Assembly: GCA_020058765.1 (NCBI GenBank)
Contig: JAGVDM010000009.1
Coordinates: 1 to 42,515 of the forward strand
From: Candidatus Peribacterales bacterium
Lineage (GTDB): Bacteria > Patescibacteriota > Gracilibacteria > Peribacterales > Peribacteraceae
DNA: 42,515 bases
Direction: 5' to 3'
Part shown: positions 5,730 through 16,252 of the stretch, in pieces
How positions within the stretch are numbered: position 1 is the stretch's first letter
Layout: each line of letters starts with the position of its first letter
Made by a program: the position numbers and the translations under genes
Notes under the pieces: generated by a model
The model's input: the letters and a program-made list of their open reading frames with translations, nothing else
Told to the model about the DNA's origin: nothing
Databases searched by the model: none

Positions 5730-8700
5730 ATGCGCTGGACGGATCTGAAGTCCCACCTTCGGCACCTCAAAGAAGTCGATCTGAAACGCATTGAAGAAGC
5801 GTTTGAGCTAGGCAAAACCGTGCACGAAGGACAAATGCGTAAATCCGGTGAACCGTACTTCTCTCATCCTGTCGCTGTTGCGGAGATGCTCGCGGAGATG
5901 GATGCAGATGCGGATACCATTATCGCAGCGCTCCTCCACGATTCCATTGAAGATACAAACCTGACACTTCAGAAGATTGAGGCGCAGTTTGGCGAGAGTG
6001 CAGCCGCACTCATCGATGGTCTCACGAAGCTAGAAATGAAGGACTTGCACCAAACTATTACGCTCGACCAGCAGATCGAATCTCTGCGCAAAATTTTCAC
6101 GCTCATGCAGCAGGACGTGCGCATTATGGTGATCAAGCTGGTAGATCGCCTGCACAACATGCAAACGGTGGAGTTCCTTTCGCCAGAGAGACAGAAGGCA
6201 ATGGCAAAGGAAACCATGGAAGTCTACGTGAAGATCGCAGATCGACTATGCATGCAGGAAATCGGCGGACAACTTGAAGCACTTTGCCTTGCTGTACAGG
6301 ATCCAGATCTTCTGAAAAAATTGCTCGCTCGGCGCGAGCGCAACCTGCCACTCGGCAAGAAAATTTCGCATGCGATGGAGAAGAAGATGTCGGAAGATGC
6401 GGGTGCGAAAGTACCGCTGGACGTGCAGTTTGAACCCTCTTCGTGGGAGCGACTGCAAACCCAGATCCGTTCCGGGGAGGGTGCCATTACAGGCGCACCA
6501 CCGTTTAGCGTTGCAGTTGTCACCGATTCCATAGAAAACTGCTACAAAATTATGGGCGTGCTCCACCAATTGTGGCAGCGCGAGATTCTCTCGTTCCAAG
6601 ACTTCATCAACAGCCCTGCAATCAACGGATATCGTGGTCTGCACACGACAGTGATCATGGAAGATGGCACTCGTGTACGCTGCAAGATCCGCACGGAAGA
6701 AATGCATTTCTACGCGAGGAAGGGCATTGTTGCACACTGCTTCGATGGAAAAGCCACAGGGCTGATGGAATACCTCCCTTGGCTCCAGCGCATCAGCCCA
6801 CTCTCTGCAGACACACGGGATCGCAGCGAGAACTTCTGGCAGAGCCTGCAGAGCGACGTACTTGGTGAATCGATCGTGGTGCACGGCCCAGGCGACGAAA
6901 CCGTCATGCTCCCCAACGGGGCTACCGCGCTCGATGCCGCGTTCTATCTGTTTTCAGAAACAGCACTCCGCACCAAGACCATTGTCCTGAACGGTAAAAC
7001 CGTTCCATTTCACACGCCTTTGGAATACGCAGATTCCTTGGAGGCGCACTTCTCTACCAAGCACACCGTAAACCACGAGTGGTTTAGTTGGGTGTCGACC
7101 GGCATGGCAAGAGCCAACATACGACGTGCGCTCGTGGCGCAGCCGATTGCACAGAAAATTGAACAAGGGAAACGGCTGCTGCAGGAAGAGTTCGATCGAT
7201 ACGGCGCCGGCAGCGTAGATAAATACCTCCCACAAGCAGCACGGCTCCTCACTGAACTGAATATTGCAACGGTGAATGACCTACTCGCACGTGTGGCAGA
7301 AGGCGTTGTGAACCCTTCGGACATCTTGGAACGTATCAAAAGTAAGCGAAAGAAAACCAATCGAAGGGTCTTTCCCTTCCTTCCCACGCGCACGCGCACC
7401 AAAAAATACTCGTGCCTGCGTATCCGCATTCAGGGCGATCACAAGGAAGGGCCGAATATCCAAGATACTATTGAACGTCTGAGTAAAAAGAGTGGCGTCA
7501 CTCCAAATTCTCTCGCCATCCGGCAACACAATGACCGCTATACCGCCGCGGTGCAGGTGTGTTCTGACGAAAAAAACAACATAGACCGATTCTTTGCTCA
7601 AATGGAGGCGCAACCAGGCGTGCTACGGATTTCTGCCATGCCATCGGCTCTACTCATTATGCAAATCGGCCTCATACTGCTCTTTATGGTCGCTACATGG
7701 CTGCTGTCCTACTTCTCCATCCAGAGCATTGTCGCACAGAATATCCACACACTGCTGACATACTCGATTGCGTTCCCCATTGTGCTCTGCAACATCATTG
7801 CCTATCGATATATTTCCGATTACGTGGCCATTGCGCGGCGCAGCCGGGTGTTCATTGGCACGGTGCTTTTCGTGAACGCAGTCACCATTGCACTGTTTAC
7901 GGTCAACATGCTGCGCGGAGGTTTGGATATTCTGCATTTGTCACTCTTCTTTCCGCTTACGGTGCTCGTGCTCTCGGGCGTTGCGATCGTATGGATGTCC
8001 GCCAAACGCAATACATTCCTCCCCCTACAAGGCAGCAGCCAACAGGTGCCCAAGATCACCAACTGGAAAAAGCACCAGCAAGAGAAGCGACTCGGGTATC
8101 TCATACGCCTTGGTGCGGTCATCATCTGGGGAATAGAGCCACTCTATATCCGCTATACCATCGTAAACGACATCGCGCCGTCGCTCCGCGTGTTCCTCAA
8201 GGCGGGGGGTGGGCTGCTGCCATCTGTGCTGCTTGGCGTACTGTTTGCATGGGGAATCCAACGCAAACCGCTCTCGTTCAAGCTCCCGTACACAAGCCTG
8301 TTCTTCGTGATCGTGCTTGGTGAGATGGTATTCACCTACCTCATGAATTCGAGCCTCATTTACACGTCGAGCACGAACGTCATTCTGTTGAACAATTTCG
8401 CTCCGGTGATTGCACTCATCATCGCAGCGCTCTTTTGGCGCGAACAAATCCCGTACCTACGGCAGACACGCAACCTTGTCGCCATTTTCCTTCTCTTCAT
8501 TGTAGGAAGCCTTGGGAGCACGCTGCTCTTCTACAACGATATCCGTTTTGCAACGGCCGAGCATATTTGGGGCGACACTCTCGGCATGTTTATGATGATT
8601 ACCGACGTATGTCTGGTGATCGCGATGATTCGATACGTGCAAAAATTGCCCGTAGGGAAAAGTATTGAATTGAACTTCAACATCTTCCTGTTCTCACTCA

Positions 8701-9017
8701 TGATCAGCGCGCCGATTGCGCTGCTTGGAGCGACGAATATATGGCAACTCTCCGGAGCGCAAATACTGTTTGGTATAGGCGCTGGCGTACTAAGCGGATT
8801 CGGCAGAATTATGAACTTCGCCGCATTCCGACGCATCGACGGCTTCCTCGCTTTCTTAATGTTCAACATCTCCATCCTCATCACCTTTACGCTGGAAGTC
8901 TTCTATATTCAGGGTGCATCTTCCACTCCCCTGCTCATGACAGGCGGACTGATGATTATTGCCGCCTCTTGCCTTGCGGAATACATCAATTCGAAATCTG
9001 AACGCGAGAAGATTTGA
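5730..9017 (+). CDS. Rel/SpoT-like (p)ppGpp hydrolase fused to EamA-like membrane transporter
   Basis: This 1095-aa protein has two halves. Residues about 1-640 follow Rel/SpoT order: an HD hydrolase domain with all metal/catalytic residues visible (H46 in SHPV, H70-D71, E74, D139-R-L-H-N143), a synthetase-like domain (about 230-345), a TGS domain (about 380-450) and an ACT-like segment (about 558-638). The synthetase keeps INGYRGLHTTV but lacks the catalytic Asp (Pro or Ala at the aligned position near 257) and the catalytic Glu (R317 in VRCKIRTEEM instead of E in EIQIRT). Residues 640-760 hold several membrane segments, and 788-1085 a roughly ten-helix EamA/DMT-like permease. The likely outcome is a membrane-tethered alarmone hydrolase with no synthesis activity. 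Reading is continuous with no frameshift at the joint. A GAGGAG lies about 15 bp before the ATG, farther than usual. Confidence 0.9.
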   Translation: MRWTDLKSHLRHLKEVDLKRIEEAFELGKTVHEGQMRKSGEPYFSHPVAVAEMLAEMDADADTIIAALLHDSIEDTNLTLQKIEAQFGESAAALIDGLTKLEMKDLHQTITLDQQIESLRKIFTLMQQDVRIMVIKLVDRLHNMQTVEFLSPERQKAMAKETMEVYVKIADRLCMQEIGGQLEALCLAVQDPDLLKKLLARRERNLPLGKKISHAMEKKMSEDAGAKVPLDVQFEPSSWERLQTQIRSGEGAITGAPPFSVAVVTDSIENCYKIMGVLHQLWQREILSFQDFINSPAINGYRGLHTTVIMEDGTRVRCKIRTEEMHFYARKGIVAHCFDGKATGLMEYLPWLQRISPLSADTRDRSENFWQSLQSDVLGESIVVHGPGDETVMLPNGATALDAAFYLFSETALRTKTIVLNGKTVPFHTPLEYADSLEAHFSTKHTVNHEWFSWVSTGMARANIRRALVAQPIAQKIEQGKRLLQEEFDRYGAGSVDKYLPQAARLLTELNIATVNDLLARVAEGVVNPSDILERIKSKRKKTNRRVFPFLPTRTRTKKYSCLRIRIQGDHKEGPNIQDTIERLSKKSGVTPNSLAIRQHNDRYTAAVQVCSDEKNNIDRFFAQMEAQPGVLRISAMPSALLIMQIGLILLFMVATWLLSYFSIQSIVAQNIHTLLTYSIAFPIVLCNIIAYRYISDYVAIARRSRVFIGTVLFVNAVTIALFTVNMLRGGLDILHLSLFFPLTVLVLSGVAIVWMSAKRNTFLPLQGSSQQVPKITNWKKHQQEKRLGYLIRLGAVIIWGIEPLYIRYTIVNDIAPSLRVFLKAGGGLLPSVLLGVLFAWGIQRKPLSFKLPYTSLFFVIVLGEMVFTYLMNSSLIYTSSTNVILLNNFAPVIALIIAALFWREQIPYLRQTRNLVAIFLLFIVGSLGSTLLFYNDIRFATAEHIWGDTLGMFMMITDVCLVIAMIRYVQKLPVGKSIELNFNIFLFSLMISAPIALLGATNIWQLSGAQILFGIGAGVLSGFGRIMNFAAFRRIDGFLAFLMFNISILITFTLEVFYIQGASSTPLLMTGGLMIIAASCLAEYINSKSEREKI

Positions 9018-9782: not shown

Positions 9783-11570
9783 ATGACTCAACCGAACGAA
9801 GACGGCACAGAATCCACCGGCGAGGAGGAGGTGGTCACAGATGGAAAGGAATTGCTCCGTCGAGAAATCGAGGATGCAATGCTGGCTGATCGCCTGAATG
9901 CCCAGCAGCTCAAAGAGCTGCAGAGGCGTGCTGCTGCAGGGCCGTTACGGCATGCACCCGATTTGACCGCATCTACGCACGTACTGGATGAACCTACGGT
10001 GCAAACCGTTCGCGGCCTGGAACATGCCGTTCGGTGCGCGTGTGTGCATTTGAGCAACGTATGCCAGGTATCCGACCATGCGGAAATGGCGCAGAAAGTC
10101 CAAGGAACAGATACGACCGTGACATACATCCACCGCGGAATGGCGACGGAAAAGTCTCAAGAGCTCATGGAGAATCCTGGGTACGCCACGCTGCTTTCGT
10201 ACCATCCGGATTCGTCGGAGGGATACTTCCGTTCTGTTGATCAGTACTCCCGCGCTCATGCATCTCCTACGGAAGGAGGGTCTGTAGCAATGGGAGGCCC
10301 TGGCATCATCACTATGTGCCCAGTGAAGCACCTTGAAGGGTACTATGCAGATCGGGCGAAGTGGCTCGCAGCAAACACGAAGCAGGGCAGCGACCGCGAA
10401 ACACGCCAGCGAAACAACGCAATTGAACAAACCTCAGATACGCCTGTATTCCTCAAAGTGAATGCGAATCAAATGGGGAACACGTGCTCCGACGAAACCA
10501 TGCATAACATTCAGGGGGGCAGAGTGCACGGCGTAATTTTTCACGATATCAGGGATCTGCAGACGTTCGCTGATTGGTATCAGGCACAGCTCGCCGGGCA
10601 ATCAGGCAAAACACGGCAGGAAGGTCACATGAACTTCCGTGAGCCCACACTCATCCTTCGTGGAGAACCCGGCAAAGTTCGCGACACTATCGTAAGTGGC
10701 GATGCTGCAAAGGCGCATGCATTTATGTTCAATAAGCCTCTGTCTGCGCAACAGACTCGCGAGCTGCGCGATGCGCGCGCTGCAATGATGGCACGATCCG
10801 CAGAAGCGGAAAGCGTTCCGAATCCGTTTGCGCCAAATTCCGAATCGCACGCTGGAGGAGATCTGCCCCACCAGCTGAAGGTGGGTGTGGTGCACGTACA
10901 GGGAGCCGCCCGATTGGAAGCAGCAATGATTGCACAGGCATCTAGAAACGTACCGGGTATGTCGGTACAACTTGCCCTGATCCAAACCCGGCAACAGCTG
11001 GAACACTGGAACCCCGATGCATTGGTACTTCCTGGCGGCTGGCACTTCTTGCAGCACAATATGCAGGAGCACCCAGAAATCGATATCAACGGCGTTTTGG
11101 GTGAAATTGTGCAAGCGCAACGAATGCACATCTTGGGCTCCTGCGCGGGTGCAATCTTGATGCGGCAGCCAGATACTGTCGCCAAGAAGAGTGAAGGATG
11201 CGTACCAGGAACAGCACTTGGCATTCTGCCCTACCGCGTACGAAACAATGCCCGGTCAGGCATGCACCCCACACAATTCTTGATCCATGGCGCGCAGGGG
11301 GAACAGTGGACCAACCTGCCGAGTGCGCTCTACGTATCAGCTCCGCAGCTGCTCCCGGAGGAACAGGCGGACCTGAAAATCATCGCACAGACCAATGAGG
11401 AAATTTACGGCGTAATACAACGTTCAGGTCACAATGCGCCCGTGTATGCCGCAACCGCGCTGCATAACCTCCTACCGTACGTCTACTGGTTGCATGAAAT
11501 TCACGAAAACCTGGCAGTGCAGCGACTACGCGGTAAGCACGGGGGCGTGGAGGGGAACATCCAAAGTTAA
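9783..11570 (+). CDS. Unknown N-terminal domain fused to PdxT-like glutaminase-fold domain
   Basis: This 595-aa protein has an acidic N-terminal tail, an unknown domain (about 70-280) and a C-terminal class I glutamine-amidotransferase fold (about 365-575) closest in pattern to PdxT/SNO: KVGVVHVQGA, ALVLPGG, then the nucleophile elbow GSCAGAILM with Cys454. The His561 in ATALHN aligns with the catalytic His of PdxT. The following Glu of the usual HPE motif is not conserved, and the LPGGEST motif has become LPGGWHF. The N-terminal domain contains YIHRGM and a later GYFRSVDQYSRAHA, faintly reminiscent of ADP-ribosyltransferase-like folds, but I cannot establish that. No pdxS is nearby, so a normal pyridoxal-phosphate synthase role is unlikely to be directly supported here. 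Confidence 0.72.
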   Translation: MTQPNEDGTESTGEEEVVTDGKELLRREIEDAMLADRLNAQQLKELQRRAAAGPLRHAPDLTASTHVLDEPTVQTVRGLEHAVRCACVHLSNVCQVSDHAEMAQKVQGTDTTVTYIHRGMATEKSQELMENPGYATLLSYHPDSSEGYFRSVDQYSRAHASPTEGGSVAMGGPGIITMCPVKHLEGYYADRAKWLAANTKQGSDRETRQRNNAIEQTSDTPVFLKVNANQMGNTCSDETMHNIQGGRVHGVIFHDIRDLQTFADWYQAQLAGQSGKTRQEGHMNFREPTLILRGEPGKVRDTIVSGDAAKAHAFMFNKPLSAQQTRELRDARAAMMARSAEAESVPNPFAPNSESHAGGDLPHQLKVGVVHVQGAARLEAAMIAQASRNVPGMSVQLALIQTRQQLEHWNPDALVLPGGWHFLQHNMQEHPEIDINGVLGEIVQAQRMHILGSCAGAILMRQPDTVAKKSEGCVPGTALGILPYRVRNNARSGMHPTQFLIHGAQGEQWTNLPSALYVSAPQLLPEEQADLKIIAQTNEEIYGVIQRSGHNAPVYAATALHNLLPYVYWLHEIHENLAVQRLRGKHGGVEGNIQS

Positions 11571-12442: not shown

Positions 12443-15400
12443 ATGCACATGTTCGATCCGGTCGACCCCAAACAGGCCCTGCCCGACGTGGAGAATGGCA
12501 TTCTCCAGTATTGGAAGGAAGAAGACACCTTCAAGCGCAGCATCAAGCAGCGCTGGAAGGGCTCCGGCGACCTGCTCGATGGCAAACCTGGCACAGGCGA
12601 CGATTTCTCGTTTTACGATGGACCGCCCTTTGCCACCGGCCTGCCCCACTACGGCCACCTGCTCGCTGGCACTATTAAAGACGTCATCCCGCGCTACCAA
12701 ACCATGCGCGGCAAGTGCGTACAGCGCCGATTTGGTTGGGACTGCCACGGCCTGCCAGTGGAAAACCTCGTAGAGAAGGAGCACGGAATCAAAGATAAGG
12801 CGCAGATCGAAGCGATGGGTGTTGCTGCGTTCAATACGCTCTGTCGTAATTCCGTCCAGCGGTATACAAATGAATGGAAGCAAGTGGTGGAACGCATGGG
12901 TCGCTGGGTAGACATGGACTGGGACTACCGCACCATGGATCCGGAGTATATGGAGAGTATTTGGTGGGTGGTGGGCGAGCTCCACAAGAAGCAGCTGCTC
13001 TACCGCGGCCATCGACCAATGCACGTCTGCCCACGGTGTGTTACCCCACTCAGCAACTTCGAAGTCACACAGGGGTACAAAGATGTCACCGACCAGTCTG
13101 TGATCGCAAAATTTAAACTACTTGATGAATTGCCTTTGATTAAACCAAAAAAAAGTGGGCTTTCGAAGTATCCAGTTTTCATTTTGGCATGGACTACGAC
13201 ACCGTGGACGCTGCCAGGCAATTTAATGCTCGCAGTCGGACAAAGCATTCGCTATGCAGTAGTCCTTCATGAAGAAGCTTTATACGTTGTAGCAAAAAAC
13301 AAATTAGCAGAAGTATTCAAAGATAAAGAGCACGAAGTAGTCATGGAATACAGAGGTGGCACTGAAGGACTTGTTGGTCTCAAATACGAACCGCTCTTCC
13401 CGTACTTTGCCGAGAAGTACAAAGACGCCTTCCGCATTGTTGCGGGAGATTTCGTATCTACGGAAGACGGAACGGGCATTGTGCACATTGCTCCGGGTTT
13501 CGGTGAGGACGACTTCCAAATAGGCAAACAAGAAGAGCTAGAACTACTGCAACACGTCACCATGGACGGCAAGTTCGTGGATACCGTGACGGACTTTGCC
13601 GGGCAAGATGTAAAGCCGATCGATGACCCACGCAAGACCGATCAAAAGATAATCGCATGGCTGGAAGAACGCGGACTCGTATTCAGCAAAGAAACCTACA
13701 AGCACAGCTATCCGCATTGCTGGCGATGCGACTCCCCTCTGCTTAATTACGCCACAAGCTCGTGGTTCGTGAGCGTGGAAAAACTCAAAGAGAACCTCCT
13801 CAAGAATAATGCGAAAACGGAGTGGGTGCCGGGTCACATTCGTGATGGTCGCTTTGGAAAGTGGCTGGAGAACGCTCGCGACTGGGCAATCAGCCGCAAT
13901 CGCTACTGGGGCACTCCCCTCCCTGTGTGGATCAACGAGAAGACGGGAGATATGGAGGTGGTTGAGAGTCGCGATGAACTGCTGCGCAGAGCTCCGCAGC
14001 GCTTCACAAAAGTCACATTTGTGCGCCACGGTGAGAGCGAAGGGAACTTGATCCCTATCTACCAAGGCAATGCACCCGGTACCGACCTTACGAAAACAGG
14101 AAAAGCCCAAGCAGCAGCCACAGGTGAACTTCTCTCTACACAAGAAGTACGCGCAGTTTACGCATCACCGCTTGCAAGAGCGCATCAGACGGCGCTTGCG
14201 ATTGCCGAGCATTCTGGTGGCAATGTGGTGACGGACGAACGCCTGCGCGAAGTGCAATTTGGCGAATACGAAGGCAAGACAGTGGATTTTGATGACCTCG
14301 CGTTTGTGAAAGCCCGACGCGCCCACAAGTTGAAGGAAAACAGCCCCGAGAGCATCTATCACTTTCCGGGTATGGAAACGTGGGACGAAGTGCAGGATCG
14401 GCTGTCTACCTTCCTGCAGGAGGTGCTCCCCAAACATCGCGGCGAGCATATTGTAGTGGTAACACATGCAGACGTTTTGCAGAACGCGAAGCACTTCTTT
14501 AGTAAGGAGAATCCGGGCAAGATTTCTCATCAGCCCTACCCGCGCTACGCCGAGCCGCACGTGTTCTACTGGGATCATGAGCGAGGAGCACAGATGGATT
14601 TGCACAAGGACACGGTGGATGACATTACATGGAAAGATGCCGAGGGCTCCGTGTACCGCCGCATTCCCGAAGTGCTCGATTGCTGGTTCGAAAGCGGCTC
14701 CATGCCCTATGCACAATCGCATTATCCCTTCAGCCACGCAGCCCAAGAGTTGCCGCCTGGCTTCCCTGCGGACTTCATTGCAGAAGGCGTGGATCAAACA
14801 CGCGGCTGGTTTTACACACTCGCCGTGCTCGCAACCGCACTGTTCGATAAGCCAGCATTTAGGCACTGCGTGGTGAACGGCATCGTGCTCGCCGAGGACG
14901 GTAAGAAGATGAGCAAGCGCCTCAAGAACTACCCCGAACCAACGGAGATCGTAGAGAAGTACGGTGCGGATGCCATTCGCTTTACATTGATGCGCTCGCC
15001 TGCCGTTCGCGGTGAGGATCTGCGTATGAGTGAGAAACTGGTGGAAGAAAGCCTGCGGCAAGTGCTGCTCCCCCTCTGGAATACCTACAGTTTCTTTGTG
15101 ACCTACGCGAACGCAGCGCAATTCGAAGCGATAGAAAATCGTCGTCACTCCGTACATCCACTGGATCAGTGGATCCGGACTGAAGTGCAAGATTTGGTAA
15201 ACCGCATGACAGAGCAACTCGATCGCTACGACCTCTCTGCCACGTGTGCCGAGTTGGGCGATACGATCGATGCGCTCACTAACTGGTACATTCGCCTCTC
15301 GCGACGCCGCTTTGCGGGTAAGGCCGAACGCGGTAGTGCGAGCGAAGTGACCCGAATCGACACGAAAGATGATGACCAGCTCGATGCGCTCCACACACTG

Positions 15401-16252
15401 CATGATGTGCTCCTGACGATTTCGCAGGTGCTCGCACCCTTCTGCCCATTCATTACCGAGGCGATCTACCTCAACCTCGTTTCCGAAGAGCATGGATCGA
15501 TCCACCTTACCGATTGGCCGCAAACGCAGCCCCTCACCAAAGAGCAGCAAACGATGCTGCAGAAGACGACAATGCTCCGCACGATCGTGTCGCTCGGCCT
15601 GTCTGTCCGCAGTGACCAGAAAATCAAAGTGCGCCAGCCGCTGGCTTCGGCCACTATTGCCGTTCCACCGGCTTTTGTGAATATTACACTTGGCGAAGAG
15701 GATAAAAAACTCCTTACAGAAGAGCTAAACGTGAAAGAACTTGTATTCGTAGATGATCCCGGTGCGCTGGCCACAGCAGTCGCTTTGGTAGATGCGCGCA
15801 AAGTTGGCCCACGCCTTGGAGGACGCGTGCAGGAAATCATCCGTGCCGGCAAAGAAGGGAACTTCACGGTGAAGGAAAACGGCATGATCCTGATCCTGGA
15901 CGAAGAGTTGAGTGCAGAAGAAGCACAAATCGTCTATCGCGGTGCGGAAGGCCAGAACGTTGCAGCGGATAAGGGCATTGTTGTGAGCATGGATACCACG
16001 GTGAGCCCAGCACTCGAACAAGAAGGCCTCGCGCGCGATGTTATCCGCGCTGTGCAGCGTCTGCGTAAAGATGCGGGGCTCTCATTCACAGATGAAATTT
16101 CTCTCGTGGTTATGGGTGCAGATGAAATGATGCAGCAACATGGAACAATGATCGCGCGCGAAACACGATCCGTACTGCAGCCAAACGACGGAGAAGAGCA
16201 CACCATCGATGTGGAAGGGCACAAGATGTCCATTCGCTTCATGAAGCGCTAA
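12443..16252 (+). CDS. ileS: Isoleucyl-tRNA synthetase with inserted histidine-phosphatase domain
   Basis: IleRS charges tRNA-Ile with isoleucine and edits misactivated valine. The 1269-aa product has the class I signature PHYGH (His69-Tyr-Gly-His72), the WDCHGLP segment, a CP1 editing region, the late KKMSKR motif (K821-R826) and the anticodon-binding C-terminus. Between NRYWGTPLPVW and the RIPEVLDCWFESGSMPYAQ segment, where IleRS normally has only a short loop, about 195 residues (roughly 520-715) form a complete histidine-phosphatase/phosphoglycerate-mutase-like domain: FVRHGESEGN with His529, the SPLARAHQTA segment, and VVTHADV with His675. Both catalytic His are present, so activity is plausible; its substrate is unknown. 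The reading frame is unbroken through both joints. The alternative ATG at 12449 would change only two residues. Confidence 0.95.
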   Translation: MHMFDPVDPKQALPDVENGILQYWKEEDTFKRSIKQRWKGSGDLLDGKPGTGDDFSFYDGPPFATGLPHYGHLLAGTIKDVIPRYQTMRGKCVQRRFGWDCHGLPVENLVEKEHGIKDKAQIEAMGVAAFNTLCRNSVQRYTNEWKQVVERMGRWVDMDWDYRTMDPEYMESIWWVVGELHKKQLLYRGHRPMHVCPRCVTPLSNFEVTQGYKDVTDQSVIAKFKLLDELPLIKPKKSGLSKYPVFILAWTTTPWTLPGNLMLAVGQSIRYAVVLHEEALYVVAKNKLAEVFKDKEHEVVMEYRGGTEGLVGLKYEPLFPYFAEKYKDAFRIVAGDFVSTEDGTGIVHIAPGFGEDDFQIGKQEELELLQHVTMDGKFVDTVTDFAGQDVKPIDDPRKTDQKIIAWLEERGLVFSKETYKHSYPHCWRCDSPLLNYATSSWFVSVEKLKENLLKNNAKTEWVPGHIRDGRFGKWLENARDWAISRNRYWGTPLPVWINEKTGDMEVVESRDELLRRAPQRFTKVTFVRHGESEGNLIPIYQGNAPGTDLTKTGKAQAAATGELLSTQEVRAVYASPLARAHQTALAIAEHSGGNVVTDERLREVQFGEYEGKTVDFDDLAFVKARRAHKLKENSPESIYHFPGMETWDEVQDRLSTFLQEVLPKHRGEHIVVVTHADVLQNAKHFFSKENPGKISHQPYPRYAEPHVFYWDHERGAQMDLHKDTVDDITWKDAEGSVYRRIPEVLDCWFESGSMPYAQSHYPFSHAAQELPPGFPADFIAEGVDQTRGWFYTLAVLATALFDKPAFRHCVVNGIVLAEDGKKMSKRLKNYPEPTEIVEKYGADAIRFTLMRSPAVRGEDLRMSEKLVEESLRQVLLPLWNTYSFFVTYANAAQFEAIENRRHSVHPLDQWIRTEVQDLVNRMTEQLDRYDLSATCAELGDTIDALTNWYIRLSRRRFAGKAERGSASEVTRIDTKDDDQLDALHTLHDVLLTISQVLAPFCPFITEAIYLNLVSEEHGSIHLTDWPQTQPLTKEQQTMLQKTTMLRTIVSLGLSVRSDQKIKVRQPLASATIAVPPAFVNITLGEEDKKLLTEELNVKELVFVDDPGALATAVALVDARKVGPRLGGRVQEIIRAGKEGNFTVKENGMILILDEELSAEEAQIVYRGAEGQNVAADKGIVVSMDTTVSPALEQEGLARDVIRAVQRLRKDAGLSFTDEISLVVMGADEMMQQHGTMIARETRSVLQPNDGEEHTIDVEGHKMSIRFMKR

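Follow-up and report, generated by a model that had tools for sequence, protein, structure and literature searches.

A histidine phosphatase domain nested in the isoleucyl-tRNA synthetase of Candidatus Peribacteria and recurring in other synthetases of Patescibacteria

Why should an isoleucyl-tRNA synthetase (IleRS) carry a complete histidine phosphatase (HP) domain in the middle of its chain, and does the phosphatase have anything to do with the synthetase that houses it? The question is raised by the ileS gene in a stretch of 42,515 nucleotides (henceforth the window) from a Ca. Peribacteria genome of 1.17 Mb that is 99.3% complete. The features on which the analysis rests are the following, with residue numbers referring to the IleRS chain.

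12443..16252, + strand: ileS, type-2-like isoleucyl-tRNA synthetase, 1269 aa (open reading frame, Pfam, ileS profile, nearest structures)
12647..12658, + strand: HYGH, the HIGH signature of the synthetase, aa 69-72, intact (translation; conserved columns H69, G71 and H72)
14000..14587, + strand: inserted HP domain (branch 1), aa 520-715, in connective peptide 2 (CP2), site A (Pfam PF00300, AF2 model)
14024..14029, + strand: R528-H529 of the RHG motif, H529 being the expected phospho-histidine nucleophile (H invariant, R in 99% of inserted copies, filled columns)
14177..14179, + strand: R579, phosphate-binding Arg of SPLAR (100% conserved)
14249..14251, + strand: E603, expected proton donor (95% of inserted copies, 65/65 at site A)
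14465..14467, + strand: H675, second catalytic His, in VVTHAD (98% of inserted copies, 65/65 at site A)
14906..14917, + strand: KMSK signature, aa 822-825, intact (translation, conserved columns)
15164..15643, + strand: anticodon-binding domain, aa 908-1067 (Pfam PF08264)
15710..16237, + strand: C-terminal DUF5915 domain, aa 1090-1265 (Pfam PF19302)

The preliminary description of this DNA had proposed an unbroken ileS of 1269 aa that keeps its class I synthetase motifs, and this is what we found: a single open reading frame with both the HYGH and the KMSK signatures intact. The protein scored about 876 bits (875.8–877) against the NCBIfam ileS equivalog, well above the cut-off of 621.4, and a profile search found no other IleRS gene above cut-off in the genome. 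The CP1 editing domain, with the motifs WTTTPWTLP and GTGIVHIAP, and the anticodon domain were recovered in sequence and structure along with the HIGH and KMSKS signatures. With its synthetic and editing parts complete and no second copy in the genome, the protein is predicted to be a working IleRS; as the sole IleRS gene in a 99.3% complete genome, charging of tRNA-Ile by it is implied.

The Pfam domains follow one another in one chain as tRNA-synt_1, His_Phos_1, tRNA-synt_1, anticodon-binding domain and DUF5915. The His_Phos_1 match (PF00300, aa 525-682) had an E-value of 2.9e-37 and 128.6 bits against a gathering threshold of 21.7. It breaks the ileS profile in two, with profile positions 5–498 before the insert and 505–849 after it, so that at most some 7 residues of CP2 have been replaced; the insertion point corresponds to residues 495/496 of an insert-free reference IleRS. 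A complete HP within an otherwise intact IleRS, placed where IleRS normally has a short loop, was the central claim of the preliminary description and is borne out, the CP2 spacer being 52–62 aa long in the insert-free IleRS measured versus 250 in the window. The full catalytic set of branch 1 (H529, H675, R528, R579 and E603) is present, including the two histidines named beforehand, which are kept in all 65 site A homologues analysed. On this sequence evidence the insert is predicted to be an autonomous, catalytically competent phosphatase looped out of CP2. It is the only PF00300 domain in the window's genome.

Modelling, which had been suggested at the outset, indicated that the two folds are compatible. 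The AF2 model of aa 1–1075, built from an alignment of the window and related-locus sequences only, had a mean pLDDT of 88.7 and a pTM of 0.86; most of the HP core exceeded pLDDT 90, the cap (aa 610–640) being weaker, and the HP domain folded alone reached 84.6. The HP model matched the phosphoserine phosphatase PspA (4ij6; VIA-align Z 22.8, rmsd 2.4, 190 residues) and PhoE (Z 22.1), confirming the phosphatase fold, while the IleRS model aligned end-to-end with yeast IleRS (9wqs; Z 41.5, rmsd 2.6 over 813 residues) and with that of T. thermophilus (1ile; Z 37.4). Coexistence of both folds in one chain, each confidently predicted, is thus plausible.

Neither domain is new in itself. The host fold, with its HIGH/KMSKS signatures, CP1 and anticodon domain, is that of the type-2 (eukaryote-like) IleRS of yeast (9wqs/7d5c), P. 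megaterium (IleRS2, 8c8v) and T. thermophilus (1ile), which align with the window model at Z 37–42 and 42% identity over ~815 residues but have a short CP2, and no phosphatase has been described in the solved IleRS compared. The nearest solved HPs, PspA (4ij5/4ij6) and the broad-specificity phosphatase PhoE (1h2e/1ebb), share the fold (Z 22–23) and the catalytic residues, but are standalone enzymes only 27–28% identical to the IleRS domain. The insert also fell far below the cut-offs of the HP equivalogs dPGM_arch (NF038349, 99.9 bits, cut-off 225), PspA (NF045917, 91.7, cut-off 350) and CobC, alpha-ribazole phosphatase (TIGR03162, 91.2, cut-off 162.9). It is textbook knowledge that synthetases can contain editing domains, and NCBIfam NF040702 (ileS_w_GNAT) shows that IleRS can carry an additional enzyme, there an acetyltransferase instead of an HP; the window protein has no GNAT match and scored 281 bits against its cut-off of 1999. 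Mycobacterial MutT1 joins a NUDIX to an RHG phosphatase, whose His is dispensable for the activity tested (PMC11784022); there too an HP accompanies another nucleotide-handling domain, but the two are fused end to end and no synthetase hosts them. Our search of 5.4 million openly available papers returned nothing on aminoacyl-tRNA synthetases that contain a phosphatase. What appears to be new, then, is the embedded HP and the unexpected convergent pattern in which it occurs.

That pattern became apparent when IleRS proteins were searched for the insertion, a survey proposed at the outset. The insertion is real, as had been claimed, but it is not peculiar to one gene. All family IleRS readable through the CP2 region have an HP at site A, and the named relatives are Ca. 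Peribacteria or Peribacteraceae. Site B holds an additional HP in some 26 family members, whose open reading frames reach ~1440–1530 aa. Mapping the cuts onto an insert-free reference IleRS defined four sites, namely A (487–503) and B (~511) in CP2, C (541–544) after WFESG and D (666–695) after KMSKS; one protein (L049) has HPs at B, C and D together. In a phylum sample of 145 genomes, hosts being scored as open reading frames >900 aa with an HP, those outside the class showed it inside IleRS in 15 genomes and ValRS in 2, and in no other host of this size. Within the class sample the other >900-aa hosts were ValRS (4, with up to three copies), AlaRS (1) and UvrB (1). Site A is missing from many Patescibacteria. 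Beyond Patescibacteria, absence is judged from the insert-free IleRS in the genome scan, where 67 of 80 open reading frames were without an HP, many of them from Spirochaetota, Pseudomonadota, Verrucomicrobia and similar groups.

The same survey turned up a number of unusual architectures. A ValRS with three HPs (L187:1000-5298) and an AlaRS with one (L188:1797-4982) come from the same genome, whose IleRS has a GNAT domain and no HP. GNAT acetyltransferases are nested between WFESG and KMSKS in the IleRS L053 and L056, and the CP1 editing region of another (L052:523-4455) contains an IS200-type Y1 transposase domain in frame. Two IleRS using code 25 (L057, L058) combine a NUDIX domain in the CP1 region with the site A HP and a second, degenerate HP match. 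In the UvrB (L184:1561-4935) an HP and, after it, a serine hydrolase domain are both nested, and a 665-aa protein (L181:1153-3147) joins a nucleotidyltransferase (NTP_transf_2) to a C-terminal HP.

In a tree of the HP domains, made by a quick method and with many weak deep branches, the copies cluster by insertion site: those at C form one clade, those at D fall into more than one group, and those at B, along with the majority of those in ValRS, join standalone HPs apart from site A. Because of this clustering and the separation of the B and ValRS copies from A, the HPs at different sites are more likely to differ in ancestry and to descend from several recruitments than to have arisen by internal duplication; an origin of site B as a tandem duplicate of site A is unsupported. 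The HP of UvrB has as its sister the one in the IleRS from its own genome (support 97), and the AlaRS copy is sister to one from ValRS (support 95); the domain therefore passes between hosts as well. The tree of the IleRS body requires at least 9 changes of state at site A, gain and loss being indistinguishable.

Among 120 inserted copies with a mean pairwise identity of only ~30%, the filled columns of H529 and R579 never vary, and R528, H675 and E603 occur in 99, 98 and 95% of the copies that fill theirs. The catalytic set is complete in 65/65 copies at site A, 33/35 at site B and 5/9 in ValRS, and the single AlaRS copy is without the catalytic Glu. Within the family, identities of the HP (0.46–0.68) and of the IleRS body (0.59–0.69) indicate similar constraint. 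Since the residues are intact in every site A copy at such low overall identity, selection acts on catalysis, and the pattern fits a working enzyme. The cap segment, on which the specificity of HPs depends, is shared by only some of the Peribacteria and varies in other lineages; a single common substrate is therefore not implied. The substrates suggested at the outset (a mononucleotide, an alarmone or a tRNA-linked compound) drew no support from the analysis.

As best explanation we tentatively propose, while holding it at somewhat below an even chance, that the HP is a clean-up phosphatase tethered to the synthetase, whose substrate would be a small phosphorylated inhibitor or by-product. By analogy with the chemistry of the HP family, H529 would accept the phosphoryl group, held by R528 and R579, with proton transfer by E603 and H675 and subsequent hydrolysis of phospho-H529. 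The weakest step is the next one, that the HP would serve the synthetase by dephosphorylating a nucleotide- or amino-acid-like small compound that might arise at, or be aimed at, these enzymes. We favour this role because the hosts are nearly all IleRS, ValRS or AlaRS and because relatives carry GNAT and NUDIX domains inside IleRS, which would suit the same purpose; aminoacyl-tRNA synthetases produce dinucleotide by-products, and these are hydrolysed by NUDIX enzymes (PMC7705103). HPs are not known to cleave internal phosphoanhydrides (e.g. in Ap4A) by their usual chemistry, which counts against clean-up, as do the variation of the cap, the absence of site A from many Patescibacteria and its repeated changes on the IleRS tree.

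A bolder and somewhat unlikely version holds that aminoacyl-tRNA synthetases of Patescibacteria (IleRS at four sites, ValRS and AlaRS) have repeatedly, and each time independently, taken up an active HP for a hitherto undescribed phosphoester-removal step in aminoacylation or editing, which might for example destroy a phosphorylated mimic or inhibitor of the aminoacyl-adenylate, or repair a 3'-phosphorylated tRNA end. The repeated entry of HPs into IleRS and ValRS, and once into the structurally unrelated AlaRS, with up to three copies per protein, hints at such a phosphate-removing step tied to protein synthesis. If true, a quality-control or detoxification step in translation has been missing from the picture; otherwise the pattern would point to an unusual evolutionary process that nests small enzymes in essential ones in candidate-phyla bacteria.

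This latter possibility is the most serious rival. The HP might be an independent metabolic phosphatase housed as cargo in a surface loop that tolerates it, within the product of an essential gene whose expression is constant; it would work on a substrate of its own, unconnected with aminoacylation. Unrelated domains do enter essential proteins, as the transposase, GNAT and NUDIX domains in IleRS and the HP and serine hydrolase in UvrB illustrate; the transposase and the UvrB pair speak directly against clean-up, and therefore keep neutral nesting in contention. The sister relationship of the UvrB and IleRS HPs indicates a domain able to change hosts, and the window's genome has no PF00300 domain besides the IleRS copy. 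Against mere cargo stand the strong skew of hosts towards IleRS, ValRS and AlaRS (the last a class II enzyme of unrelated fold), the several separate entries into IleRS, and the retention of the IleRS HP by members that also have standalone HPs. On balance we regard it as rather unlikely.

A distinctly less probable alternative is that the HP acts near the tRNA-binding surface on tRNA or alarmones, removing a 3'-phosphate or 3'-pyrophosphate from tRNA ends that have been damaged or modified by toxins, or trimming (p)ppGpp. Its hosts are mainly tRNA-binding synthetases, and part of Peribacteria share a conserved basic cap, KARRAHK; this cap is absent from other lineages, however, and a UvrB is also among the hosts. 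The window encodes upstream of ileS (5730-9017, + strand) a RelA/SpoT homologue, with HD hydrolase, partial synthetase region and AH/RIS, fused to an EamA-type transporter, and in 12 of the 18 family members examined ileS has a RelA_SpoT match of this partial type no more than 10 kb away, but outside the family such a neighbour is not linked to the insertion. We know of no HP with activity on tRNA ends or (p)ppGpp, which weighs further against this reading.

It is more doubtful still that the domain is structural or regulatory, i.e. a dimerisation or scaffold module, or a phosphatase of the synthetase itself. Some HP enzymes do dimerise and some act on proteins; SixA, for instance, acts on Ndk (PMC12934123). 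The near-perfect conservation of the catalytic residues argues against a scaffold, and no HipA_C match reached the cut-off in 40 relatives, which leaves them without a HipA-type kinase above that threshold and makes an anti-HipA role unlikely.

Very improbable is a substitution for a missing enzyme of central metabolism, either phosphoglycerate mutase (PGM) or pyrophosphatase. The best NCBIfam HP model for the insert is the archaeal dPGM and there is no second HP in the genome, but that match lies far under its cut-off, and both iPGM and an inorganic pyrophosphatase are encoded. The latter (PF00719) removes the need for a pyrophosphatase role in the window's genome, though it was not found in many relatives. 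Across 24 family genomes iPGM tends to occur where a standalone HP is missing (6/7 vs 1/17; Fisher p 0.0003), so it is probably the standalone HP, and not the one in IleRS, that fills the PGM slot in Peribacteria. There iPGM and the standalone HP are nearly mutually exclusive, as if swapped. Lastly, a misassembled, chance or decaying insertion has a negligible probability, given that independent family genomes share the insert with frames and catalytic residues intact.

As for the surroundings of the gene, no structured RNA was found near ileS. The open reading frame at 9783-11570 (+ strand) encodes a protein of 595 aa without a confident Pfam match, the C-terminal half of which weakly resembles the SNO/PdxT glutamine amidotransferase.
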